32,518 nucleotides of DNA from Oligoflexia bacterium (GTDB taxonomy: Bacteria; Bdellovibrionota; UBA1018): contig JACMQW010000028.1 in the NCBI GenBank assembly GCA_014376785.1, forward strand, positions 1-32,518. Direction: 5' to 3'. Position numbers and translations under genes: made by a program. The notes beneath the pieces were generated by a model that had not been told where the DNA came from, ran no database searches, and was given only the letters and a program-made list of their open reading frames with translations. Below, in pieces: positions 7,586 to 22,794 of this stretch. Within the stretch, counting starts at the first letter, position 1. The number at the start of each line of letters is the position of its first letter.

Positions 7586-9381
7586 TAAAATTCTGCTCCG
7601 AAGCTGACGAAGTATTGGTTTTTATGGTGGCCCTTCAGAGGGTTATAACCGTTAGCATAAGTAGCGCGAATCGTGCCAAGCGGAGTGGCCGCTCGTGCCC
7701 CTAAACCAGGCGAATAAAAGAGGCCAGGATCAAACGTCATGTTGCCGTGGCCAAGCCAACCATAGTCAGTGAAGAGCAGCGGTTCCAAAGGCATGGGAAA
7801 GAGGTTCGGCCACCGAGATTCGATTCCCAGCGTGGCGGCGCTCCCTGCCCCTTTTTTCACTTCGGGTAAACTATTCCGTCCGAATCCGCGCAAGTCGCGG
7901 TCACCCCCGATGAGAAAGAACCAATCGACGGGAACTCGGTCCACATTAGGAATCGATCCATCTCCGGTGACCAGCATGCCCAGAGAGTATCGTGCGCCTA
8001 GCACCCAGCGCGGTTCCACGTAGTCCCGGAAGTTCCAGAGCGCCGTCCCTGAGATGAGTGTTCTATGGACGGAATTTGTTTTTGCCTGACTTCCCGGAAG
8101 GAAATCGTAAGCGAAGTTAAAATCGACACCGGTTCGGGGGCTGCCTCGGTAGCGTTCGAAATCGTGCGAGTGTGCGTTCAAAAGAATTCCCGGGGTGAAG
8201 AAGTAATTCGCCACACTGGGACGCGCCGTCAGATCGCGAAAGCGCCTGAAGTTAAAACCCGCTTGGGGATCGAGCGTCCAATTACCGATGTCGAACGTTC
8301 GCCCGAGAAAGCTGGTGATTTTGGTTTCGATCGATTCGAACTTCGGTTCTTTTCGGTGTTCGAACTGAGCACCGGGCTTGAGATACATCCTTCGGTCGTC
8401 TTTGAAGGCGTACCATTTCAAATCGCCGGAAATTTTTTGTCGGATATTGGAACCGATGAATTCCGCGCGGAAAGTCGAAGCCGAACTCCAGAGTCGACTG
8501 TTATTCCAACGCACAAATCCGAGGGGGTATTCCTCGGTACTCGCACCGACGCCGATTTCCCAAGCGCGCCGCGAGCCGAAGCTTGCCGAGCGGTCGAGTT
8601 GCGTGAGTTTTCCATTCTCACAACGAGGAGTGTATTGGGCGCTGGAAACCACGTTATCGGATTCCATGCGCCAGCCAGCGAGAATGGTTTTACTGATGTT
8701 GAAACGATTACCTTCGTGGAAGGGCTCGTAGCGACGCAAAATCTCGTTATCGACTTCGGGAGGATTCACATCGACGGTCTGCGGAAAAATCTGGCGCTCC
8801 CCGGACTGAATTTTTAGAATGACCCGACCGTCGGGGTGGGCGACAAGGTCTATTTTACCGCAGGCATACCCGATCGTTTTCAGTTGCTCGATTGAGTAAC
8901 TGGAAATCGTATCGAGGGTGGTTTTTTCAAGCGGATGACCGAGATAGATATTCAGTGGCGGAGTTTTCCACTCCGGCGGTTCCCCTTCGGTCAGAATCGC
9001 GGTGACGACCGATCTCTTTCCCGCATCGACCACCACTTTCCCCGCATCGTAATCGACCGTAATTTTCGGATCGAGGTAAGCCTGGGACTCGAGGTAGGAA
9101 CGAAGAAATTTCGCGGATTGGCCGGGAGGAATTTTTTTCCAAGCGTAGTGCGCCGGATCTCCGCAGATCAGAATTTTATCGTTCTTGGAAATTTCTACCT
9201 GAGGCGTGCCGGGACTCCAGGTGATTTCTTTTTCACAGATTTCGGGGGTCGAGCATCCGGTGAGCGCTAGCGTGGTCATGATTGTCGCCACAGTGAGCAA
9301 CTCGGCAGCAGTGGGTAAGCCTGCAAGCGTGGAGAAGAATCGGACGGTGGCGGACTTCTGGACGGGGTTCGGCTTATTCAA
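7585..9381 (-). CDS. tamA: TamA/BamA-family barrel with a lipobox
   Basis: An Omp85-family outer-membrane protein of 598 residues. The C-terminal half is a 16-strand-type barrel with the conserved loop-6 motif, here GGDRDLRGFGRNSL. It ends in KNQYFVSFGAEF with a terminal Phe. The N-terminal part carries POTRA-like segments (about residues 95-210). Unusually, the signal region ends in a lipobox, LALTGC, putting an acylated Cys at residue 43, as in the TamL lipoproteins of Bacteroidetes. The only start codon consistent with an export signal is TTG at 9381; an in-frame TGA lies just upstream near 9430, and internal ATG codons would leave too short a signal. Its pairing with tamB supports a TAM role rather than BamA. 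Confidence 0.88.
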   Translation of the reverse strand: MNKPNPVQKSATVRFFSTLAGLPTAAELLTVATIMTTLALTGCSTPEICEKEITWSPGTPQVEISKNDKILICGDPAHYAWKKIPPGQSAKFLRSYLESQAYLDPKITVDYDAGKVVVDAGKRSVVTAILTEGEPPEWKTPPLNIYLGHPLEKTTLDTISSYSIEQLKTIGYACGKIDLVAHPDGRVILKIQSGERQIFPQTVDVNPPEVDNEILRRYEPFHEGNRFNISKTILAGWRMESDNVVSSAQYTPRCENGKLTQLDRSASFGSRRAWEIGVGASTEEYPLGFVRWNNSRLWSSASTFRAEFIGSNIRQKISGDLKWYAFKDDRRMYLKPGAQFEHRKEPKFESIETKITSFLGRTFDIGNWTLDPQAGFNFRRFRDLTARPSVANYFFTPGILLNAHSHDFERYRGSPRTGVDFNFAYDFLPGSQAKTNSVHRTLISGTALWNFRDYVEPRWVLGARYSLGMLVTGDGSIPNVDRVPVDWFFLIGGDRDLRGFGRNSLPEVKKGAGSAATLGIESRWPNLFPMPLEPLLFTDYGWLGHGNMTFDPGLFYSPGLGARAATPLGTIRATYANGYNPLKGHHKNQYFVSFGAEF

Positions 9382-14093: not shown

Positions 14094-14459
14094 CTAAACT
14101 TCCCGCGCGTAAATCGGAACAATCTTCAAAAGCGTTTCGAGATCGATGGGTTTTCGTAAGAATCCGTCTGCTCTCTGACTCGAGACTTCGTCTGCCGTTG
14201 CAGAGACCATGAGTACGGGAAGTTCCGCATGTTTAGGGTTCTCGCGGAGGTGACTCAGGAACTCGAGACCCCCCATGATCGGCATGACGAGATCAAGAAG
14301 AACGAGCGAGAACCCGCCCTCTGTTTCGATTTTGTCCAACCCATCCCGTCCATTCACCGCCGTCACCACTTCATAACCTTCCGATTCCAAAGCCATGTGA
14401 ATGGTTTCTCGGATGCTGAAGTCGTCCTCGACTACGAGGATGCGTCTTGGGTTACTCAT
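14094..14459 (-). CDS. Single-domain response regulator (CheY-like)
   Basis: A 121-residue receiver domain with no output domain. The acidic pocket E11/D12, phospho-acceptor Asp56 (in LVLLDLVMP), Ser87 and Lys103 (FLRKP) are all in place, so phosphorylation should work. The ATG lies inside the 3' end of the histidine kinase gene (8-base overlap), marking the kinase as its probable partner. Lacking a DNA-binding or enzymatic domain, it would act by protein contact or as a phosphate shuttle to an unlinked target. Confidence 0.93.
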   Translation of the reverse strand: MSNPRRILVVEDDFSIRETIHMALESEGYEVVTAVNGRDGLDKIETEGGFSLVLLDLVMPIMGGLEFLSHLRENPKHAELPVLMVSATADEVSSQRADGFLRKPIDLETLLKIVPIYAREV

Positions 14460-16101
14460 GTTCGGCCGTGTTCGCCGGGGCTAAATGAGGCAAGGTGACG
14501 CTGCTTGGGAGATCGACCATAAAGGTCGTCCCATGAATGGCATCGCTCTCGACGCTGACCGATCCCCCATGGGCCTGCACAATCCCTTGCACCAACGTCA
14601 GCCCCACGCCCCAACCCTTCTGTCCGCCACTGATGGCGAAAGAAAGGCGTCGATAAGGTGTAAAGAGCGTCGAGAGGTCGGATTCTGATATGGGATTTCC
14701 AAAATTGTGCACAGAGATTTTAGACCTTTCTTCTTGATGAGTCAGGGTCACGGTCACGGGGGAACCTGAAGTTCCATACTTTACCGCGTTCCCGGCAAGG
14801 TTCTCGATTACTCTCTGAATTAAACTGCAATCCCAGTGCCCTTCCATAATGCCCGATTTGGCGTGGATTTCGAAATGCGGGCCATGCAAATCCTGGAGAG
14901 CGGACACGGCCGCTTCTGTGATTTTTATTAAGTCACAACGTTGGAATAGGACAGGGATGCTTTCCCCGGCCTTCAGGCGGTTTGCGTCGAGTAAATCGCG
15001 AATCATTCCATCCGCTCGGTCCATATTCGAAACGATGCGTTGGGAGAGGGTATTCACCCTTTTTGCGTCGGGCACTTTCCGCATGAGGAGTTGCCCGGCC
15101 ATTTTTGCGGCGGTGAGGGGGGTGCGCAAGTCATGGGTGAGCGCTTCGACAAACCTTTCCCGGGCCTCTCGCTCTTTCCTCAGGTCTTCAACGGTATTTT
15201 CTAAGGCAGATTGGCTCTCTTCTAACTGTAGCCTTGCTCGAACTCGGTCAGTCACTTCGAATGCATGGTCATAGACGCCATAGGGCTTCCCCTCGGCATC
15301 GGGAATCGGAATGTAGGAGAAATCGAAGTATCTTTTTTCTAATGGCCCTCCCGGAGTGACCGCAATTTCTGCCATCACTTCCGTTCCGACAAAGGGAATT
15401 CCGGAGTTCATGACCGAGCGGAGTAACTCCGGAAAGTCCTGTCCGATGAATTCAGGACAGGCGTCTATTAATTTTCGCCCAATCAATTCTCGACCTGGAA
15501 AGACGGATTGGTAGGAAGGATTTACGAGCTCGAACACCAGATCTTGCCCATGCCAAAGCGCCATCGCCGCAGGAGTGTCCCGAAAAATAGCTTCAAACTT
15601 ATGGCGTTGAAAAATCAGTTCGGCTGCGGAAATTTTCTGATTCAATTTATAGAGAATTTCTCGGTCGTTTTCGATGGCCGAGTAGCGTGCTGAGGCTTTT
15701 CGAACGCCGAAGTCGATGTAGTCGTTGATGAGGTCAGAAGTGCTTTCGCTCATCACCGCTTCCGCCCTTAACGATTGGATGGTGACTCGCCGGAGGATTT
15801 GGTATTCATGAATGACTTGATCGAGCGTGTAGCCCGGTTGTTCGGCCCGGTCATCGCCATGCTCCTTTGCGATTTCTGCGCTCGAAATGTCCGATACCTT
15901 TTCATCCGGCCCTCGCAGGGTTTCGGCGAGGTGGTCGATGAAGGGCGGGAGCGAATCGCGCAAAGCCCGTTTCGACTGCGCATCCGCTGCAGGAACTTCT
16001 GCTCTGGCTTGCGACTCCCAGCGTTCGAGAATTGTTTCCTTCAGGCGCGAAACCAGGTTGCCCGCTTCAATGTTCGTGATGAGCTTCGACGCGTGATTCA
16101 A
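14452..16101 (-). CDS. Histidine kinase with RsbRD-like and PAS input domains
   Basis: A soluble sensor kinase of 549 residues without transmembrane segments. Domains in order: an all-helical RsbRD/RsbT-coantagonist-like N-domain (about 10-150), a PAS domain (about 168-285), a short coiled-coil linker (290-315), HisKA with the phospho-accepting His323 in ALTHDLRTPLT, and HATPase_c with the N box (N434, N438), a GGQKGWGVGL G box and a terminal GTTFMVDLP. The start is TTG at 16101, supported by a strong GGGAGGA Shine-Dalgarno six bases upstream; no ATG fits. It follows the msrBA gene by 58 bp and overlaps the response regulator. The PAS ligand is unknown; redox or oxygen sensing would fit the neighbours but is speculative. 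Confidence 0.92.
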   Translation of the reverse strand: MNHASKLITNIEAGNLVSRLKETILERWESQARAEVPAADAQSKRALRDSLPPFIDHLAETLRGPDEKVSDISSAEIAKEHGDDRAEQPGYTLDQVIHEYQILRRVTIQSLRAEAVMSESTSDLINDYIDFGVRKASARYSAIENDREILYKLNQKISAAELIFQRHKFEAIFRDTPAAMALWHGQDLVFELVNPSYQSVFPGRELIGRKLIDACPEFIGQDFPELLRSVMNSGIPFVGTEVMAEIAVTPGGPLEKRYFDFSYIPIPDAEGKPYGVYDHAFEVTDRVRARLQLEESQSALENTVEDLRKEREARERFVEALTHDLRTPLTAAKMAGQLLMRKVPDAKRVNTLSQRIVSNMDRADGMIRDLLDANRLKAGESIPVLFQRCDLIKITEAAVSALQDLHGPHFEIHAKSGIMEGHWDCSLIQRVIENLAGNAVKYGTSGSPVTVTLTHQEERSKISVHNFGNPISESDLSTLFTPYRRLSFAISGGQKGWGVGLTLVQGIVQAHGGSVSVESDAIHGTTFMVDLPSSVTLPHLAPANTAEHE

Positions 16102-16159: not shown

Positions 16160-17221
16160 TCAGAGCTTGCGCACGTAGTGGCAGGAGTATCCTTTTGGAT
16201 GTTTTACTAAATAGTCCTGATGGTCCTCCGACGCTTTGGAGTAAGAACCCAGATCAGTGATTTCGGTTGTGACTGGTTTTTGCCACAGAGTTGCAGCTTC
16301 GATTTTTGCTTTCTCGGCGGCGGTTTTTTGTGCGCCGTCTTCGGTGAAAATCGCTGAACGGTACTGGTCTCCGACGTCATTTCCCTGCTGATTCAGATGA
16401 GTCGGATCATGCAGTTTGAAAAAGATCGCGAGCATGCGGGCGTAGTCCGTGCGCTCGGGGTCGAACGTGATTTTTACGGCCTCCGCCTTTTCCTGGTTTC
16501 CGGTTTTGCCCGTCGCGTAGCCGACTTCCGTCGTGATCACTCCTGGAACTTTTCGGATGATTTGCTGAACGCCCCAAAAACAACCTCCGGCAAAAACCGC
16601 TTCTCCAGTTTTCACAGGTGCCACCGAGGGAAGTACCTTATTCGAGTTTTGAAAAAGGACGGCAAAGCGGTCCAGCTTTTCTTTTTTTAAATCTTTCACC
16701 GGCACAAATCGGAGCGATGCTGAATTCATGCAAAAGCGTTTACCCGTGGGTTTAGGTCCGTCGTTAAACACATGTCCCAAATGGGAGGATGATCCTCTAG
16801 TCCTGACTTCCGTCCTTTTTTCGCCGAGTTCAAGATCCGTAACGTAAACGACTGCGTTTTCATCTAATGGTTTCGTAAAACTCGGCCATCCCGTACCAGA
16901 ATCGTATTTATCTTTAGACGAAAAGAGGGGGGTGCCCGAAATGACATCGACGTAGATGCCATCCTCTTTATTTTTCCAATACTCATTTTTATAGGGGGGC
17001 TCGGTGTCTGAAAGCTGGGTCACTCGGTATTGGACATCGGTGAGGCGCTCTTTCAATTCAGGGCTGATTTCTTGAGAAACGCGGGCAGCGGTTTCAGGCG
17101 TTCCCGACGGGCGGCTTGCTGCAATTCCGGAGGGTTCACAGCCGAGGAGCGCGAGGGTGATCGCCGAATAAGAAAAAGTTAATGGATGATGCCTTAGAAA
17201 TTTTCGAAGTGGAGTCATCAT
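16160..17221 (-). CDS. msrBA: Lipoprotein methionine sulfoxide reductase MsrB-MsrA fusion
   Basis: A two-domain repair enzyme of 353 residues that reduces both diastereomers of methionine sulfoxide. The lipobox LALLGC (Cys28) places it at the membrane facing the periplasm. The MsrB domain comes first (about 52-190) with catalytic Cys164 in [11 protein letters not shown] and the SHLGHVF block. The zinc-binding CxxC pairs of many MsrB proteins are not visible. The MsrA domain follows (about 205-353) with catalytic Cys214 in GGCFWG. The B-A order is the reverse of the common A-B fusion but is known in some bacteria. The two adjacent ATG codons (17221, 17218) have only a weak upstream AGGA. It follows HMG-CoA reductase by 85 bp on the same strand. 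Electrons probably come from a DsbD/thioredoxin-like donor encoded elsewhere. Confidence 0.95.
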
Positions 17222-17306: not shown

Positions 17307-18602
17307 TCAACGCCCCCCTCGCATCAGACTTAGGATGTTCCGTGCGTCGAGTGCCGAGATGCGTTTTTGGTCTTGAAAAAGGTTCTCTAACCGAGTTTTT
17401 AATAGGGGGAGTTCCGTCTCACTGGCTTCGCTGCCGAGTGCGATATTAGAAACGTGCAGACGCATGTGACCCGCGACGATTCCGTCCCCACAAAGCGCGC
17501 GGAGTGCAGCGAGGTTTTGGACTAAGCCGACTGCGCCGACAATTCGCGCCAGTTCTCGAGCACTTTTCACATCGAGCAACTTTAAACAGAGTGCAGCGGA
17601 GGGGTGGGTCCGCGTGACCCCACCCACGGTGCCGAGTGACATCGGAATATCCAGATTTCCTTCGAGCGTCCCTTCGCCGTCCGTTCTCCAGATCGACAAA
17701 GGCTGGTAAGAACCCGAGCGAGCGGCGTACGCGTGGGCTCCCGCTTCAACCGCACGCCAGTCGTTTCCGGTAGCGATGAGTATTCCATCGATCCCGTTCA
17801 TGATTCCTTTGTTGTGGGTGGTTGCTCGGTAGGGATCGAGCTCTGCGAAGCGACTGGCTTCCTCGATTCGAATCGCAAGCGCAGGATCGATGTTTCGAAG
17901 AGTAATGCGCGCAGTCACCCGGCATTCGTCTGCCAAATTCGAAACAATCCGCAGGCCCACTTCTTCACCGATGAGGTGAGCGATCGAAGCGGAGACGATT
18001 TCGCACGCTTGGTTGATGAGATTTGCGCCCATGGCGTCTTTTGTGTCGCAGAAGAGGTGGACGACGAGCATTGACGTTTGGAACGGGAAACCTCGCTCTA
18101 AAATGCGGACTTCTAATCGGTTGAATCCTCCTCCTCGCGAAACGAGACCGGGAACTGTTTCATTCGCAAAAGAGAGGATATCATCCGAGCGAAGTTGAAT
18201 TTTTTCTTGGGCCGCCCGGGCGTCGCTTACGGAAGGAAATTGGATCTGCCCGATGTTTTCACCCAATTGGGCGGAGGTGGTGATTTCCCCGAACTGCTGT
18301 ATCCATTTTGCCGCCGCCGAAGCGGCTGCGATGATCGAGGTTTCCTCCACCGCAAGCGGTATCCTCCGCCTGATCCCATCGATCACGAAGTGATCGGCAA
18401 ACCCAAGCGGAATACTAAAATATCCGACAGCATTTTCGATCCACTGATTTGCTCGCTCAACAGGCGGATGCTGCGATTCAAACCATTTTCCTTCACTTAA
18501 GGGCACTCCGATTTCCTCAAGTAAAGTCGTCACTCTTTCATGAGGAGACATTTTTCGAAACGATAGGGATTCGGGGGGAGCCGCGTTTTTTTTCATATTC
18601 AT
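17307..18602 (-). CDS. mvaA: Class II hydroxymethylglutaryl-CoA reductase
   Basis: A class II HMG-CoA reductase of 431 residues. It makes mevalonate from HMG-CoA, or in degraders runs the reverse reaction. All four catalytic residues of the Pseudomonas mevalonii enzyme have equivalents: Glu86/87 in VEETS, Lys266 in HNKG, Asp282 in TGND and His380 in GHMRLH. Other landmarks are ENAVG (57-61), DAMGAN (190-195) and GTVGG (325-329). The ATG at 18602 overlaps the menA-like stop (ATGA), so it is translationally coupled to menA and the polyprenyl synthase. This context favours a biosynthetic role, supplying isoprenoid precursors for the quinone side chain. Confidence 0.95.
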   Translation of the reverse strand: MNMKKNAAPPESLSFRKMSPHERVTTLLEEIGVPLSEGKWFESQHPPVERANQWIENAVGYFSIPLGFADHFVIDGIRRRIPLAVEETSIIAAASAAAKWIQQFGEITTSAQLGENIGQIQFPSVSDARAAQEKIQLRSDDILSFANETVPGLVSRGGGFNRLEVRILERGFPFQTSMLVVHLFCDTKDAMGANLINQACEIVSASIAHLIGEEVGLRIVSNLADECRVTARITLRNIDPALAIRIEEASRFAELDPYRATTHNKGIMNGIDGILIATGNDWRAVEAGAHAYAARSGSYQPLSIWRTDGEGTLEGNLDIPMSLGTVGGVTRTHPSAALCLKLLDVKSARELARIVGAVGLVQNLAALRALCGDGIVAGHMRLHVSNIALGSEASETELPLLKTRLENLFQDQKRISALDARNILSLMRGGR

Positions 18603-19711
18603 CCAAACCAGACTGCGACGAAGAGTGAAAAGCCGAGAAGGACGCCTCCGATAAGGTGAACTTTCGCCGCCGCTACTTTTACTCCCATCAGTGAGGGACA
18701 GTCGGGCCCCAGTGCCGCTTTAAATCGGAAGGTGATCTGAGTAGCCGGAATGAGAATCAGTGCAGCAAGCAATGCGGCTACGGGCAGGCGATCCGTGAAA
18801 ACGGCATAAAATAGAGCCAGCGCGGCTCCGAGATAGATTCCTCCGAGGAGATGAATCGATTTTCGGTACCCCAGGGTGTTTGCTAAGGTAAGCGCTCCTT
18901 GCTTTCGATCGAGGTGCATGTCTTGGAGGTTATTCGCATGCAGAAGTCCGCATGCGAGGAGGCCAACAAAAATCCCAATCGGAAAGAGTCCGGGACTGAA
19001 CATCCCAAACACGGTGTAGGAATATCCCGCCACCAACGCGGGCCCGCAAAGAATGAATACCGCGAGGTCGCCCAGTGCATGGTATTTTAACCCGAACGTT
19101 TCATGCGAATAAAGGAGGGTTCCCGCGAGCCCCACTCCTCCGATGATGATCACTTCCAGCGGATGGGAAATGAGAGTCGGGATGCCGAAGACCACTGCCG
19201 CCACGAACGCGAACCTTGCTGAATTTAGGATTTGGTTTGGACGGTACCACCCTTTTTCAAAAACCCCACTCCCGCCGGAGGTTCCCGGCAGATCGATCAA
19301 TTTCACGTAATCGGAGTAATCGTTGTAAAGATTCGTCGCAATTTGCAGGAGAACCACGGCAAGCGCGACGGTAATCGCAGTGAATGCTTGAAACGGATAG
19401 CCCCGCCGCCAACCATCGATCAGCACCACGGCGCAGGGAACCGCGGTGGCAGTCAGGCTAAAGGCGCGAATCGCCGTCAACCCTCTCTTTAAATGTTCGA
19501 CGAGATCCTTAGCAGGCGAGGATTCTACTTTTCGGAAGATGACTTCTTCGGGCCCTTCCGAGCGCTTTAAAGTATCAAAAACGCGCACGCGCGTGAGTTT
19601 TCCATCTTGCTTTATAAAACCCGTTCGAAGGGCTGCGAGCGTCTCTGCCTGTCCCTGTTTTAGAAAAACGGGGGAATCATTTTTGTCCGTTGAAAGAGTT
19701 TTCATTTTCAT
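18599..19711 (-). CDS. menA: MenA-like prenyltransferase (UbiA family)
   Basis: An integral membrane UbiA-family enzyme of 370 residues. It probably transfers the polyprenyl chain to 1,4-dihydroxy-2-naphthoate in menaquinone synthesis. About eight or nine transmembrane helices run from residue 85 on. The first Asp-rich motif is NLYNDYSDY (about 127-135) and the second is NNLQDMHLDRKQG, both typical of MenA. The frame is open upstream to 19942, but the ATG at 19711 has GAGGAGAGG before it and overlaps the preceding stop (ATGA), which decides the start. Residues 1-75 are a soluble extension not usual for MenA. A UbiA-type enzyme of another quinone or haem pathway is less likely given the NN-QD---D-R motif. 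Confidence 0.88.
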   Translation of the reverse strand: MKMKTLSTDKNDSPVFLKQGQAETLAALRTGFIKQDGKLTRVRVFDTLKRSEGPEEVIFRKVESSPAKDLVEHLKRGLTAIRAFSLTATAVPCAVVLIDGWRRGYPFQAFTAITVALAVVLLQIATNLYNDYSDYVKLIDLPGTSGGSGVFEKGWYRPNQILNSARFAFVAAVVFGIPTLISHPLEVIIIGGVGLAGTLLYSHETFGLKYHALGDLAVFILCGPALVAGYSYTVFGMFSPGLFPIGIFVGLLACGLLHANNLQDMHLDRKQGALTLANTLGYRKSIHLLGGIYLGAALALFYAVFTDRLPVAALLAALILIPATQITFRFKAALGPDCPSLMGVKVAAAKVHLIGGVLLGFSLFVAVWFG

Positions 19712-20685
19712 AAGAGCCTCTCCTCGAGGCGTTGAAGGATGCGTTCGATCCGCTGACTCGATTCCTGACTGGGGGCTTGTCCCGCATGAGTCATTGCGGA
19801 GATCAGGTCTGATAGGTTGCGCCGAGCCGCTCCCATCTGTGCACGTCCGGCAGACCGCGTGTCCTCGACCGCCGACTGAATTTCTTCGGGTGTCCAAGGA
19901 AGAGATTCCGAAGAATTCGAGGATAGGCTTCTCTGCACCCAAGCCTGGGTATGCGGAGCGATTTCCAGAAGGCGGAAAGTCACTCGGTTCACTAAACCTT
20001 CCCGTAAATCAGCTGCGTAGGGTTTACCCGAGCTCAGCGAAAAGTCGACTGCATCGTCGATCCATTGAAATGCCACACCGATGCGGGTTGCGAATTCTCG
20101 AGTGAGCGCGATCACGGGTTCCGGTGCATTTGATAAATGAGCAGGGACTAAGCAACACCAACGAAAAAGACTCGCAGTTTTCAGATCGGCCACTCGGGAA
20201 AGGTGTGAGGACGAAACATCGGAAATGCCCCTGGCTTCATTCTGAAGCAGTTCGCCGGTCACCAGTTCGCGAAGGGTGGCGGCGAGACCTTCCACGATGG
20301 CGGCATTTTTTAGCTTCGATACGGCGTAAATTCCTTCGGCAAGGAGGTAATCGCCTGCAAGAATCGCTTTCCGGTTCTCGATTCGCGCATTTAAAGTCAA
20401 CGATCCGCGGCGAGTAGAGGACTCATCAATGACGTCATCGTGCGCGAGCGTCGCGGAATGGACTTGTTCTGCCGCGCGAGCGTAAGGAATGACAGCATCG
20501 AAGGGAAGTCCGAAAAATCGCGCGAATTCTCCCATGAGCAAGGGCCTCAGTCGTTTTCCCCCGCGCAGAACCGAGGCGTCGATCACACCTTCCAATCCGG
20601 TCAGAGCCCCTTTCCCGCCTAGGGTGTAAAGGCTCGAATCAAACCAGGGAAGGGCCCAGTCGTCCCGAAAATCTTTGTCGACCAT
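19708..20685 (-). CDS. Long-chain polyprenyl diphosphate synthase
   Basis: A trans-prenyltransferase of about 325 residues of the IspA/IspB/HepT family that extends FPP or GGPP with IPP units. It has GGKRLRPLL near residue 40, the first Asp-rich motif in LAHDDVIDESSTRRG and the second in WIDDAVDF. The residues before the first motif cannot fix the chain length; context (menA) suggests the menaquinone side chain. An upstream TTG at 20694 is possible, but the ATG at 20685 lies a better distance (9 nt) from the AGAGG Shine-Dalgarno. The first gene of the isoprenoid operon, it lies directly behind a palindromic operator at 20704-20725. Confidence 0.93.
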   Translation of the reverse strand: MVDKDFRDDWALPWFDSSLYTLGGKGALTGLEGVIDASVLRGGKRLRPLLMGEFARFFGLPFDAVIPYARAAEQVHSATLAHDDVIDESSTRRGSLTLNARIENRKAILAGDYLLAEGIYAVSKLKNAAIVEGLAATLRELVTGELLQNEARGISDVSSSHLSRVADLKTASLFRWCCLVPAHLSNAPEPVIALTREFATRIGVAFQWIDDAVDFSLSSGKPYAADLREGLVNRVTFRLLEIAPHTQAWVQRSLSSNSSESLPWTPEEIQSAVEDTRSAGRAQMGAARRNLSDLISAMTHAGQAPSQESSQRIERILQRLEERLL

Positions 20686-20703
20686 CCTATGCAACCTCTA
20701 TAG

Positions 20704-20725
20704 TAGTTTACCATCTATTAAACTA
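20704..20725. promoter_or_regulatory. Palindromic operator upstream of the isoprenoid operon
   Basis: TAGTTTA (20704-20710) and TAAACTA (20719-20725) form a perfect 7-bp inverted repeat with an 8-bp spacer. The site lies 19-40 bases before the start of the polyprenyl synthase and overlaps a possible -10 element (TAAACT on the minus strand, with TTTAAC about 17 bp upstream). An identical palindrome with the same spacer lies at 21408-21429 beside the GbsR-type regulator gene, the natural candidate to bind both. Confidence 0.75.
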
Positions 20726-20795
20726 AAAGTTAAACCCCATCTTTCGGGCGATAAACCTACTCTTTAGAGACCGTGTTAGAATATGAAAGAGAGGT

Positions 20796-21344
20796 CTATT
20801 TTTCACTCCCCCCGCTCATCCGGCTCAGGAGGTCCAGCAGGCCTCCTCCCGCGGATCCTGCGATGAGAGAAAGGTTCGAAAGAGTTCTGAGACTTCGCTC
20901 CGCACTATTCACGAGTTTTCCGAGTTCTTTAATCCGCTTAGGGCTCAAATTATTTTCCCTCACTTCGGACTCTGGCAAGGTCGCCACTCCTGTGTGCGCG
21001 ACTTTGATTTTTCCGAGTAATGGACGTTCGCGGATTCTGAGGACATTTTGGATGACCGACTGTAGATCGGGATTTGCCTGGTAAAAGACCGTTCCGTGTC
21101 GCCCCATGCCCGTTTCGATGATGACGGCATACTCTTTCAGCTCTTTCATACAAAAGCTGAGGAGGGTTTTCGAAACCTTCAGTCGTCGCATGAGTTCCGA
21201 AACATCCAAGGGAGTGTCCGAGAGGTAAAGGTGGAGCCAGACTCGACCGTGGATCCGTTTAAATCCCCAATATTCCATGAAGTGGCCGATTTCTTCATCG
21301 AGTGCGAGGATTTCGGGAGGAAAGCGGCCTAAAGGAGTGCTCAT
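20796..21344 (-). CDS. GbsR/MarR-type winged-helix transcriptional regulator
   Basis: A regulator of 182 residues with the GbsR-family layout. An N-terminal helix with GHFMEYWGFKRIHGRVWLHLYL leads into a winged helix-turn-helix (recognition region about 46-72, PLDVSELMRRLKVSKTLLSFCMKEL). The wing is around GMGRHGTVFY, and a C-terminal helical dimerisation part follows. No Cys-based redox switch is obvious: only one Cys, at about 65 in the HTH region. It diverges from the haem-oxygenase-fold/azoR operon with an operator palindrome between them, and lies just upstream of the isoprenoid operon, which has a second copy of that palindrome. Autoregulation and control of both operons are inferred. 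The ligand is unknown. Confidence 0.9.
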   Translation of the reverse strand: MSTPLGRFPPEILALDEEIGHFMEYWGFKRIHGRVWLHLYLSDTPLDVSELMRRLKVSKTLLSFCMKELKEYAVIIETGMGRHGTVFYQANPDLQSVIQNVLRIRERPLLGKIKVAHTGVATLPESEVRENNLSPKRIKELGKLVNSAERSLRTLSNLSLIAGSAGGGLLDLLSRMSGGSEK

Positions 21345-21407
21345 GGCTAACGTTGTCTCACATCGAAGTGAGCAGCGAAAGAGTCTGCTTCATTCGATTT
21401 TAGAATG

Positions 21408-21429
21408 TAGTTTAACAAAGAGTAAACTA
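21408..21429. promoter_or_regulatory. Palindromic operator in the divergent promoter region
   Basis: TAGTTTA (21408-21414) and TAAACTA (21423-21429) form the same 7-8-7 palindrome seen at 20704-20725. In one orientation the identity to that site extends to AGTAGTTTAC. It lies between the divergent starts at 21344 (-) and 21446 (+). On the minus strand it covers a possible -35 (TTTACT) for a TAAAAT -10. On the plus strand it lies just after a TAGAAT -10-like element. Both positions fit repression. Confidence 0.75.
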
Positions 21430-21445: not shown

Positions 21446-22162
21446 ATGATGACGACCACACCCCGTGTAGATTTCCGAGACCTCCCGACCTGGCTTCGCG
21501 ACGCGCATGAAAAGATGATGGTGCCGAGGAAGAAGGCAATCGAGAATCATCCGTTCACCCTCGCGATGCAAAACGGGTCAGCCGAACCCAGACACGCCGA
21601 GCGCTATTTTTCGGGCCTGATGTGGCACCTTTTATCGTTTGGGCAGCACGTTGCCTTTTTGGAGAAGAAGCGGCCTGCGGCAGTGGGTGAATTTTTGAAG
21701 GGTCGGAGTGAAGATAAAGATGGAGACACCGACATCCTCGGCCGAATTGTGACCGCGTTCGGGGGGCCCATGCGAAAGATCGTAGAAAAGCCATGGACCT
21801 ATGAACCGCCCCCGGTGTGGTCTCGGCACGACGCGTTTCTTCGGAGTGCGATTTATAGCACGGATCTAGCTTGGCAAGTGGGGGCGGCGGCATTGAACGT
21901 GGGGATTGAATCACTGGTTCCGACGATGGTGGAGCCCCTTTTTCAAGCGTCGATCAAAAACTACGGCGTGACTTCTCACGCGGCTGAGTGGCTTGCTTCC
22001 CGGTCTGGTGAAGCAGAGAAGCAACACGGAGAAAATGGTTACGCGCTTCTGAGAGAATTCGTTCCCGAAGGGGACCGACTTCTGCAGGAGCAATGTGTTT
22101 TTTACATCGATCTTTTGTCGGATTCGATGGCTTACGGTCTTTTAGAAAGCGGGATAAAATGA
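21446..22162 (+). CDS. Haem-oxygenase-fold putative diiron enzyme (TenA/PqqC-like)
   Basis: An all-helical protein of 238 residues resembling the 'iron-containing redox enzyme' (HDO/HO-like diiron) and TenA/PqqC groups. Candidate metal ligands are spaced as in that fold: His35 (ENHPF), His61/His68 (WHLLSFGQH), Glu155 (NVGIESLVP), His178, Glu189/191 and His194 (AEKQHGENG). Known members oxidise fatty acids, amino acids or small ligands with O2; the substrate here is unknown, and a plain non-metal TenA-like protein cannot be excluded. It starts at paired ATG codons 17 bp after the operator and overlaps azoR by the ATGA quadruplet, making a two-gene operon divergent from the regulator. Confidence 0.75.
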   Translation: MMTTTPRVDFRDLPTWLRDAHEKMMVPRKKAIENHPFTLAMQNGSAEPRHAERYFSGLMWHLLSFGQHVAFLEKKRPAAVGEFLKGRSEDKDGDTDILGRIVTAFGGPMRKIVEKPWTYEPPPVWSRHDAFLRSAIYSTDLAWQVGAAALNVGIESLVPTMVEPLFQASIKNYGVTSHAAEWLASRSGEAEKQHGENGYALLREFVPEGDRLLQEQCVFYIDLLSDSMAYGLLESGIK

Positions 22163-22794
22163 AAGTTTTAATCGTTCATTCGAGTCTGGGTGGAAGTGAA
22201 TCCGTGACGCGTGATCTCTGTGAAACTGCGATTTGGCGCTTGAAAGAAATTTCCCCAGGCCTGGTCCTCACTGAGCGAGACCTCGGCTTAAGTCCTCATC
22301 CTCATCTGGACGAGGCGTGGTGGCGCGCGGCTGCAAAACCGGCAGCGGAGCGATCCGCGGACGAACAGGCGTGTTTACGCTTGTCAGATGACATCTGCCG
22401 CGAAGTAATCGAAGCGGATGTGGTGATGGTCGGCGTTCCGATGTGGAATTTTTCTATTCCTTCGGCTTTGAAGGCGTGGATCGACCACCTTGTTCGAAGC
22501 GGAGTGACGTTTCGCTACGGTCCGAAGGGTCCGGAGGGTCTTCTTTCTCCTGATAAAACAGTTTTTGTTTTCGAAGCGACAGGGGGAGATTACGTGAATC
22601 CAGAGCTTGCGCGACTGAATCACGCGGGTCCCTACATTCGCCAAATTTTCGGATTTTTAGGCGTGAAGAACGCAGAAGTGATTACGGCAAGCGGCACGGC
22701 CTACCGTAAAACCGGAGCCTTGGAAGAGGCGCGAGCTGAGATCTTCAAGCGGTTTCAAACTTTTGGAAAAGTGGTGGGGACCGCTCGTCCCTGA
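22159..22794 (+). CDS. azoR: FMN-dependent NADH azo/quinone reductase
   Basis: A flavodoxin-fold AzoR-type oxidoreductase of 211 residues. These use NAD(P)H to reduce quinones and azo compounds by two electrons, lowering thiol and quinone stress. Visible features are the N-terminal FMN phosphate loop region MKVLIVHSSLGGSESVT (AzoR usually has SPR.S.S), PMWNFSIPSALKAWIDHLVRSGVTF (about 95-119), nearly diagnostic for AzoR, and the EATGGDY block. The start ATG at 22159 overlaps the upstream stop (ATGA). Its last 40 bases overlap the convergent ferredoxin gene. Co-transcription with the haem-oxygenase-fold enzyme and proximity to menA suggest a quinone substrate, which is inference. Confidence 0.92.
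   Translation: MKVLIVHSSLGGSESVTRDLCETAIWRLKEISPGLVLTERDLGLSPHPHLDEAWWRAAAKPAAERSADEQACLRLSDDICREVIEADVVMVGVPMWNFSIPSALKAWIDHLVRSGVTFRYGPKGPEGLLSPDKTVFVFEATGGDYVNPELARLNHAGPYIRQIFGFLGVKNAEVITASGTAYRKTGALEEARAEIFKRFQTFGKVVGTARP

Follow-up and report, generated by a model that had tools for sequence, protein, structure and literature searches.

Two identical palindromes in a 32,518-nucleotide contig of an Oligoflexia bacterium (JACMQW010000028.1; this whole stretch is the window) bracket the gene of a GbsR-type regulator. One precedes an operon for a polyprenyl synthase, a prenyltransferase and an HMG-CoA reductase, and the other lies between the regulator gene and a divergent operon. This arrangement raises the question of whether the palindromes are operators of the intervening regulator and, if so, which genes the regulator controls. 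A preliminary description had proposed that it coordinates mevalonate-fed menaquinone synthesis with quinone reduction.

The palindromes and the neighbouring genes

Operator O1 (predicted), 20704–20725: perfect TAGTTTA-N8-TAAACTA, TAGTTTACCATCTATTAAACTA; edge ~19 bp before the pps start codon
Operator O2 (predicted), 21408–21429: perfect TAGTTTA-N8-TAAACTA, TAGTTTAACAAAGAGTAAACTA; between the divergent regulator and HO-azoR genes
hmgr, 17307–18602, minus strand: HMG-CoA reductase (PF00368, 4e-90; TIGR00532); overlaps the menA-like gene
menA-like, 18599–19705, minus strand: UbiA-family prenyltransferase (PF01040, 4e-19); sister clade to the DHNA prenyltransferase MenA
pps, 19708–20685, minus strand: long-chain-type polyprenyl diphosphate synthase (PF00348)
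regulator, 20796–21344, minus strand: Mj223/GbsR-type winged helix, 182 aa, putative autoregulated repressor
HO, 21446–22162, plus strand: enzyme of haem-oxygenase-like fold (CADD/TenA/UndA/PqqC-type)
azoR, 22159–22794, plus strand: flavodoxin-fold FMN-dependent NAD(P)H:quinone/azo reductase (PF02525, 1.9e-38)

Both palindromes are exact matches with an equal 8-bp spacer, as first described, and the 10-base extended identity AGTAGTTTAC was found at 20702–20711 on the plus strand and on the minus strand at O2. O1 is followed by pps and then by the overlapping menA-like and hmgr genes, whose starts were refined to the ATG at 20685 for pps (not the TTG at 20694), the ATG at 19705 or 19711 for the menA-like gene and the ATG at 18602 for hmgr. 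O2 lies 63 bp from the regulator start and ~17 bp from the HO start, and azoR begins with an ATG at 22159 that overlaps the HO stop codon (ATGA). Downstream of hmgr, on the same strand, are an msrA/B fusion (16160–17221) and an RsbRD-N/PAS histidine kinase gene (14452–16101).

The earlier reading that the window holds no third full copy was borne out: at up to three mismatches, the sole extra match is 7852–7873, which contains the lone TAAACTA half-site noted in tamA (7867–7873) and, with its three mismatches, looks like chance. The shuffled window gave a mean of 0.27 matches at this tolerance, and the base composition of the window predicts 7e-5 exact copies per window and 0.007 per genome. 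In the genome as a whole there are nevertheless three perfect copies, the third at C61:3551, and a further site in which the 12-base core AGTTTA-N8-TAAACT is intact (C7:5617). Matches to the 14-base pattern with two mismatches showed no excess, with 9 in this genome against 18 for the reversed-pattern control, and loose matches are therefore uninformative by themselves. Sites near nuoA (C69), DUF393 (C59) and others, found by such matching, were left uncounted. One-mismatch-core sites do lie right before a DUF393-type gene (L207, C59:43977) and nuoA (L208, C69:14211; both names by eye), and their membership in the regulon is plausible and indistinguishable from chance.

By sequence and predicted fold, the regulator belongs to the GbsR/Mj223 subfamily of MarR regulators. 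It matches Mj223 (1KU9) over residues 22–158 (phmmer, 9.1e-8), and its AF2 model (pLDDT 87.6), which has the Mj223 fold of a winged helix and C-terminal dimerisation helices, finds 1KU9 as its best Foldseek match (1.8e-7).

The palindrome as the predicted operator of the regulator family

Regulator homologues were detected in 37 of 97 relatives. A scan of named genomes yielded 80 regulator loci from Bdellovibrionota groups, KSB1, Caldithrix, Myxococcota and unclassified bacteria; near-identical copies were dropped, leaving 76 non-redundant regulator genes, in whose flanks we searched de novo for every 6-mer inverted repeat with spacers of 2–14. Among all half-site and spacer combinations, the top repeat was AGTTTA-N8-TAAACT, at 11 of the 76 loci. 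The next independent repeats, with overlapping registers of the same repeat excluded, were TGTTTA-N8-TAAACA (7 loci) and TGTTCA-N8-TGAACA (5 loci); unrelated inverted repeats, the background, mostly occurred at 2 loci. The three variants were merged into the degenerate operator WGTTYA-N8-TRAACW, which is found near 31 of the 76 regulators, compared with a mean of 0.28 loci for 3,960 permuted versions of motif and spacer, whose high scorers are overlapping relatives of the operator itself. The remaining 45 regulator homologues have no site within 700 bp, and some of them carry one at the head of the operon instead.

The motif is 20-fold denser near the regulator than elsewhere in the same loci and 63-fold denser in intergenic than in intragenic DNA. 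Could the palindromes nevertheless be chance or structural repeats? One measure leans that way: over 97 genomes, the global count of the exact 12-base core was not enriched relative to a reversed control, so that the signal is a positional one, and the exact core co-occurs only modestly with strong regulator homologues (15/29 vs 14/68 genomes, Fisher p = 0.0035). However, the positional enrichment, the first rank in the de novo search and the finding that unlinked sites accompany the same families of genes from one genus to another all speak against chance, a reading that the de novo search and the permutation control for the degenerate motif had already refuted and to which we give next to no weight. 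Absence or random placement of the palindrome in genomes with an orthologous regulator was looked for, and the proposal passed this test. Both palindromes in the window are thus almost certainly binding sites of the adjacent regulator, as predicted from the motif comparison.

The edge of the site lies 0–40 bp from most start codons. Because an upstream TTGA (−35-like) box was present at only 8 of 32 regulator-proximal sites, promoter overlap is argued from the start-codon distance and not from promoter motifs. The segment corresponding to the recognition helix reads VSKxLxS at loci with AGTTTA, VTKGLxS at those with TGTTTA in KSB1 and Calditrichota, and VSRASVC or VSRxLxS at Myxococcota-type loci with TGTTTA or TGTTCA. 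This would suggest that the recognition helix varies with the half-site variant, a pattern seen in few, related sequences and suggestive only.

The genome also encodes a second GbsR-type paralogue (C25:20424–20855, L035; ~40% identical), which has no nearby operator and groups with paralogues from the relatives G001 and G002. In G002 (assembly 87% complete), sites are present and the window-type regulator was not detected; in G001, a site precedes an SDR gene and the paralogue is the only such regulator. The paralogue may therefore read the same operator too.

The predicted regulon in this genome and its relatives

WGTTYA-N8-TRAACW occurs at eight sites in this genome, compared with two for a control pattern. 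Six of the eight lie close upstream of pps-menA-like-hmgr, regulator/HO-azoR, fadL (a FadL/TodX porin gene, PF03349), a SnoaL-like gene plus an SDR gene, a gene for an ABC1/UbiB-like kinase followed by OsmC, and SDR-DUF1731. The ABC1 protein is 46% identical to the ABC1 of the cluster in the relative G025. The two other degenerate sites (C38, C50) have no cluster gene downstream and were taken as chance. At the ABC1 site of this genome (L230:4284), the gene divergent to ABC1 is a radical-SAM gene, putatively of DNA-repair type as judged by eye, and one of the same kind lies beside a site in G031 (L079).

The relatives arrange the same genes differently. G025 has pps, menA-like, SnoaL, ABC1 and fadL in a single cluster next to regulator-HO-azoR, and in G022, from a different genus, separate and unlinked sites precede pps-menA-like/regulator, fadL, SnoaL and HO. 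The operator is found upstream of all four known HO genes. In G070, from another family, sites stand before idi2-hmgr (idi2 by eye) and an ABC1 gene, and in the Bacteriovoracaceae locus L124, menF-D-A-C-E, pps, the regulator, operators and OsmC lie together. The proposal of a quinone- and isoprenoid-centred regulon is hence strongly supported, both by the six of eight genomic sites that precede such clusters and by the men operons of KSB1, Calditrichota and Myxococcota considered below.

A MerR-type gene (family f6) adjoins the regulator in ~15 loci, and a site in G022 abuts the merR start, as would be expected if the operator belonged to another factor such as this MerR-type regulator. The site, however, tracks the GbsR-type gene where no MerR gene is found, namely in this window, in G025, in KSB1 and in Myxococcota, and we consider ownership by another factor very unlikely. 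In Bacteriovoracia-like genomes the MerR-type gene recurs beside the GbsR-type gene (L106–L113, L120, L135, L158–L165); joint light or redox control by the pair is possible.

Menaquinone operons and stress genes beside the regulator

In KSB1 and Calditrichota, the gene order is operator-regulator-menF-menD-menB-menA-menC-menE, and the men genes of L163 were confirmed with NCBIfam models (MenD 3e-118, MenB, MenA). In Myxococcota-type loci, the regulator and menF-D-A-C-E are transcribed divergently, and the DNA separating them contains one or two operators. Outside Bdellovibrionota there are 17 loci, in 15 of which the regulator adjoins a men or pps gene and lies no more than ~200 bp from an operator. 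The gene-context labels of the 76 loci rest on reference proteins other than the menA-like sequence of the window. As part of the explanation of the palindromes given below, and with the same high confidence, we predict that a family of GbsR-type regulators controls classical menaquinone operons through WGTTYA-N8-TRAACW in KSB1, Calditrichota and Myxococcota.

Many Bdellovibrionota carry the regulator gene among stress genes (photolyase, SDR, lipocalin, OsmC). Since photolyase or DPRP genes occur within 6 kb of 24 of the 76 regulators, mainly in Bdellovibrionota, the main competing explanation is a regulon for photo-oxidative or redox stress: the regulator would respond primarily to light/singlet oxygen or peroxide, and the prenyl-quinone genes would join photolyase, lipocalin, OsmC and GPx as one of its protective outputs. 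SDR-DUF1731, OsmC, ABC1, lipocalin and MerR genes also recur near regulators in the 76 loci, photolyase or DPRP genes of G095 and G048 have a site in front of them, and OsmC follows ABC1 at the site in this genome. In contrast, men genes stand without photolyase in the KSB1, Calditrichota and Myxococcota loci, both kinds of gene occur together in only 3 of the 76 loci, and the regulon described here has no photolyase site. We regard a stress regulon of this kind as conceivable and rather doubtful. In L046, L048, L138 and L139, the operator and regulator lie within a photolyase/SOUL/lipocalin/DUF1295/ABC1 cluster (several names by eye), which in L048 and L138 adjoins carotenoid-type genes.

Which quinone the regulon may serve

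The preliminary description spoke of menaquinone, a designation that did not survive for this organism. Neither MenD nor MqnA/MqnD was found in the genome, and no convincing UbiE/MenG was found (best UbiE-family match 3e-7); the assembly is 96.6% complete, and the absence of MenD and Mqn is common to G001, G002, G022 and G025. The menA-like protein falls under every NCBIfam MenA cut-off, and a UbiA tree separates proteins of its kind, as a clade of their own, from the MenA of men operons (support 92/99), so that identity as MenA is not borne out. Both UbiA clades are present in G028 and L155. Going by sequence inspection, the other UbiA-family proteins here are a CyoE-type protein encoded beside cox genes and another whose gene lies in a lipid-type cluster. 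The gene content thus does not support menaquinone, made by any of the known routes, as the quinone of this genome. For the phylum there is one report of ubiquinone, with no convincing pathway to it (PMC13386864).

Two observations in the relatives touch on this subject. G028 has, besides a men cluster, a separate pps-menA-like pair (L210, G028:C9) near maleylacetoacetate isomerase- and fumarylacetoacetase-like genes, named by eye. Neither MenD nor MqnA/D was found in G001 or G038, each of which has a single UbiA-family protein (CyoE-type in G038 and probably also in G001), and quinone auxotrophy or scavenging in this phylum is possible.

The description of the pathway as mevalonate-fed holds in principle, because DXR was not found in this genome and isoprenoids therefore depend on mevalonate. 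It does not carry over simply to the hmgr gene of the window, whose product is a divergent second HMG-CoA reductase with 47% identity to the housekeeping enzyme (C21:13254–14354); this genome has two copies and each of seven other genomes searched has one. Similarly, the haem-oxygenase-like fold of the HO protein was upheld and a haem oxygenase identity was not. The HO gene is present in only 4 of 340 genomes of the phylum, and its model, built on only four sequences (pLDDT 75), matches CtCADD in Foldseek (3.2e-5) as well as UndA, PqqC and TenA, so that the protein probably uses a metal or oxygen and is not a haem oxygenase. Residues H61, H68, E155, E191 and H194 are invariant in the sequences and may include metal ligands such as those of haem-oxygenase-like diiron oxidases.

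One reading of these data, which we put forward only tentatively, is that quinone biosynthesis has a dedicated regulator with an operator conserved in at least three phyla, and that in the bdellovibrionotal lineage studied here, where neither of the known head-group pathways for naphthoquinones was found, this regulator drives a distinct prenylquinone route. Prey quinones might be re-prenylated, with uptake by FadL, reduction by AzoR, prenylation by the MenA-like protein and PPS, and participation of the UbiB-like ABC1; or a new head-group pathway might run via the CADD-like HO enzyme.

Known systems and a proposed mechanism

GbsR, OpcR and OpuAR of Bacillus resemble the window regulator in their Mj223-type winged helix and in being, as is presumed for it, repressors encoded near their targets (PMC6207618). 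Unlike it, they control osmoprotectant genes, and choline and related solutes serve as signals for GbsR and OpuAR; a survey of the GbsR family nowhere uses the word "menaquinone". The window regulator falls outside this osmolyte class (GbsR, OpcR, OpuAR, CudC): the NCBIfam CudC model matches it weakly (1.4e-4, 21.7 bits vs a cut-off of 218), and its cluster contains no osmolyte genes. The earlier statement that GbsR is otherwise known for choline control proved too narrow, since CydE (Alishewanella) and CioR (Chromobacterium) are GbsR-type, autoregulated repressors of cytochrome bd quinol oxidases (PMC6096048, PMC11837568). These share with the proposed regulator the protein type, an autoregulation that is predicted for it, and a tie to respiration, in their case quinol-oxidising, whereas their target is an oxidase and not quinone synthesis. 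The regulator does not belong to their class either: no cydAB/cioAB is annotated in the window cluster, and WGTTYA-N8-TRAACW does not fit the sites footprinted for CydE, TATTTCAGAAATTTCTGAAAGTTCA and GGGATGCGCATATGCAAAT.

A functional parallel may be CrtR of Corynebacterium, a MarR-type repressor that is divergent to an isoprenoid operon headed by a prenyl diphosphate synthase and for which isoprenoid diphosphates, GGPP among them, are releasing signals (PMC5401885). It differs in being actinobacterial and concerned with carotenoids, and GbsR is unmentioned in the CrtR paper. Because isoprenoid diphosphates release CrtR at a comparable operon, prenyl diphosphates and quinones are, by analogy, the first candidates for the releasing signal.

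The presence of azoR in the regulon also invites comparison with quinone detoxification, in which electrophilic quinones would release the repressor and AzoR would reduce them. Quinone-sensing MarR-like repressors of azoreductases are known: MhqR, YodB and QsrR, of the MarR superfamily or DUF24 type, control azoreductases in response to quinones. Theirs are detoxification regulons and not regulons of quinone biosynthesis; in contrast, most of the conserved targets here are biosynthetic (pps, menA-like, hmgr, idi2 and entire men operons), and azoR is confined to the HO-bearing subset. We consider a detoxification regulon improbable.

Computation shows the operator, the association of its sites with genes and the conservation across phyla. 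The explanation that we favour, and hold to be very probable, is that the palindromes are operators of the intervening Mj223/GbsR-type regulator, which would regulate its own gene and a dispersed quinone/isoprenoid regulon. A regulator dimer would bind WGTTYA-N8-TRAACW beside or over the promoter/start region and, as a presumed repressor, would shut down its own gene and the regulon, here pps-menA-like-hmgr, HO-azoR, fadL, SnoaL-SDR, ABC1(UbiB-like)-OsmC and SDR-DUF1731, until released by a signal that may be related to quinones, prenyl diphosphates or redox state. Within the first operon, pps would supply the prenyl chain, the menA-like protein would attach it and hmgr would provide extra mevalonate.

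In the open-access literature searched, we found no description of such a regulator, one dedicated to the transcriptional control of respiratory quinone synthesis. The fold family is known, while a quinone-biosynthesis branch with a defined cross-phylum operator is, within that literature, previously undescribed. With a candidate regulator and a defined 20-bp operator predicted in several phyla, the binding, the regulon and the ligand become directly testable. In Bdellovibrionota, the regulon also suggests a quinone route that uses none of the known head-group pathways, and thereby bears on respiration in this phylum.
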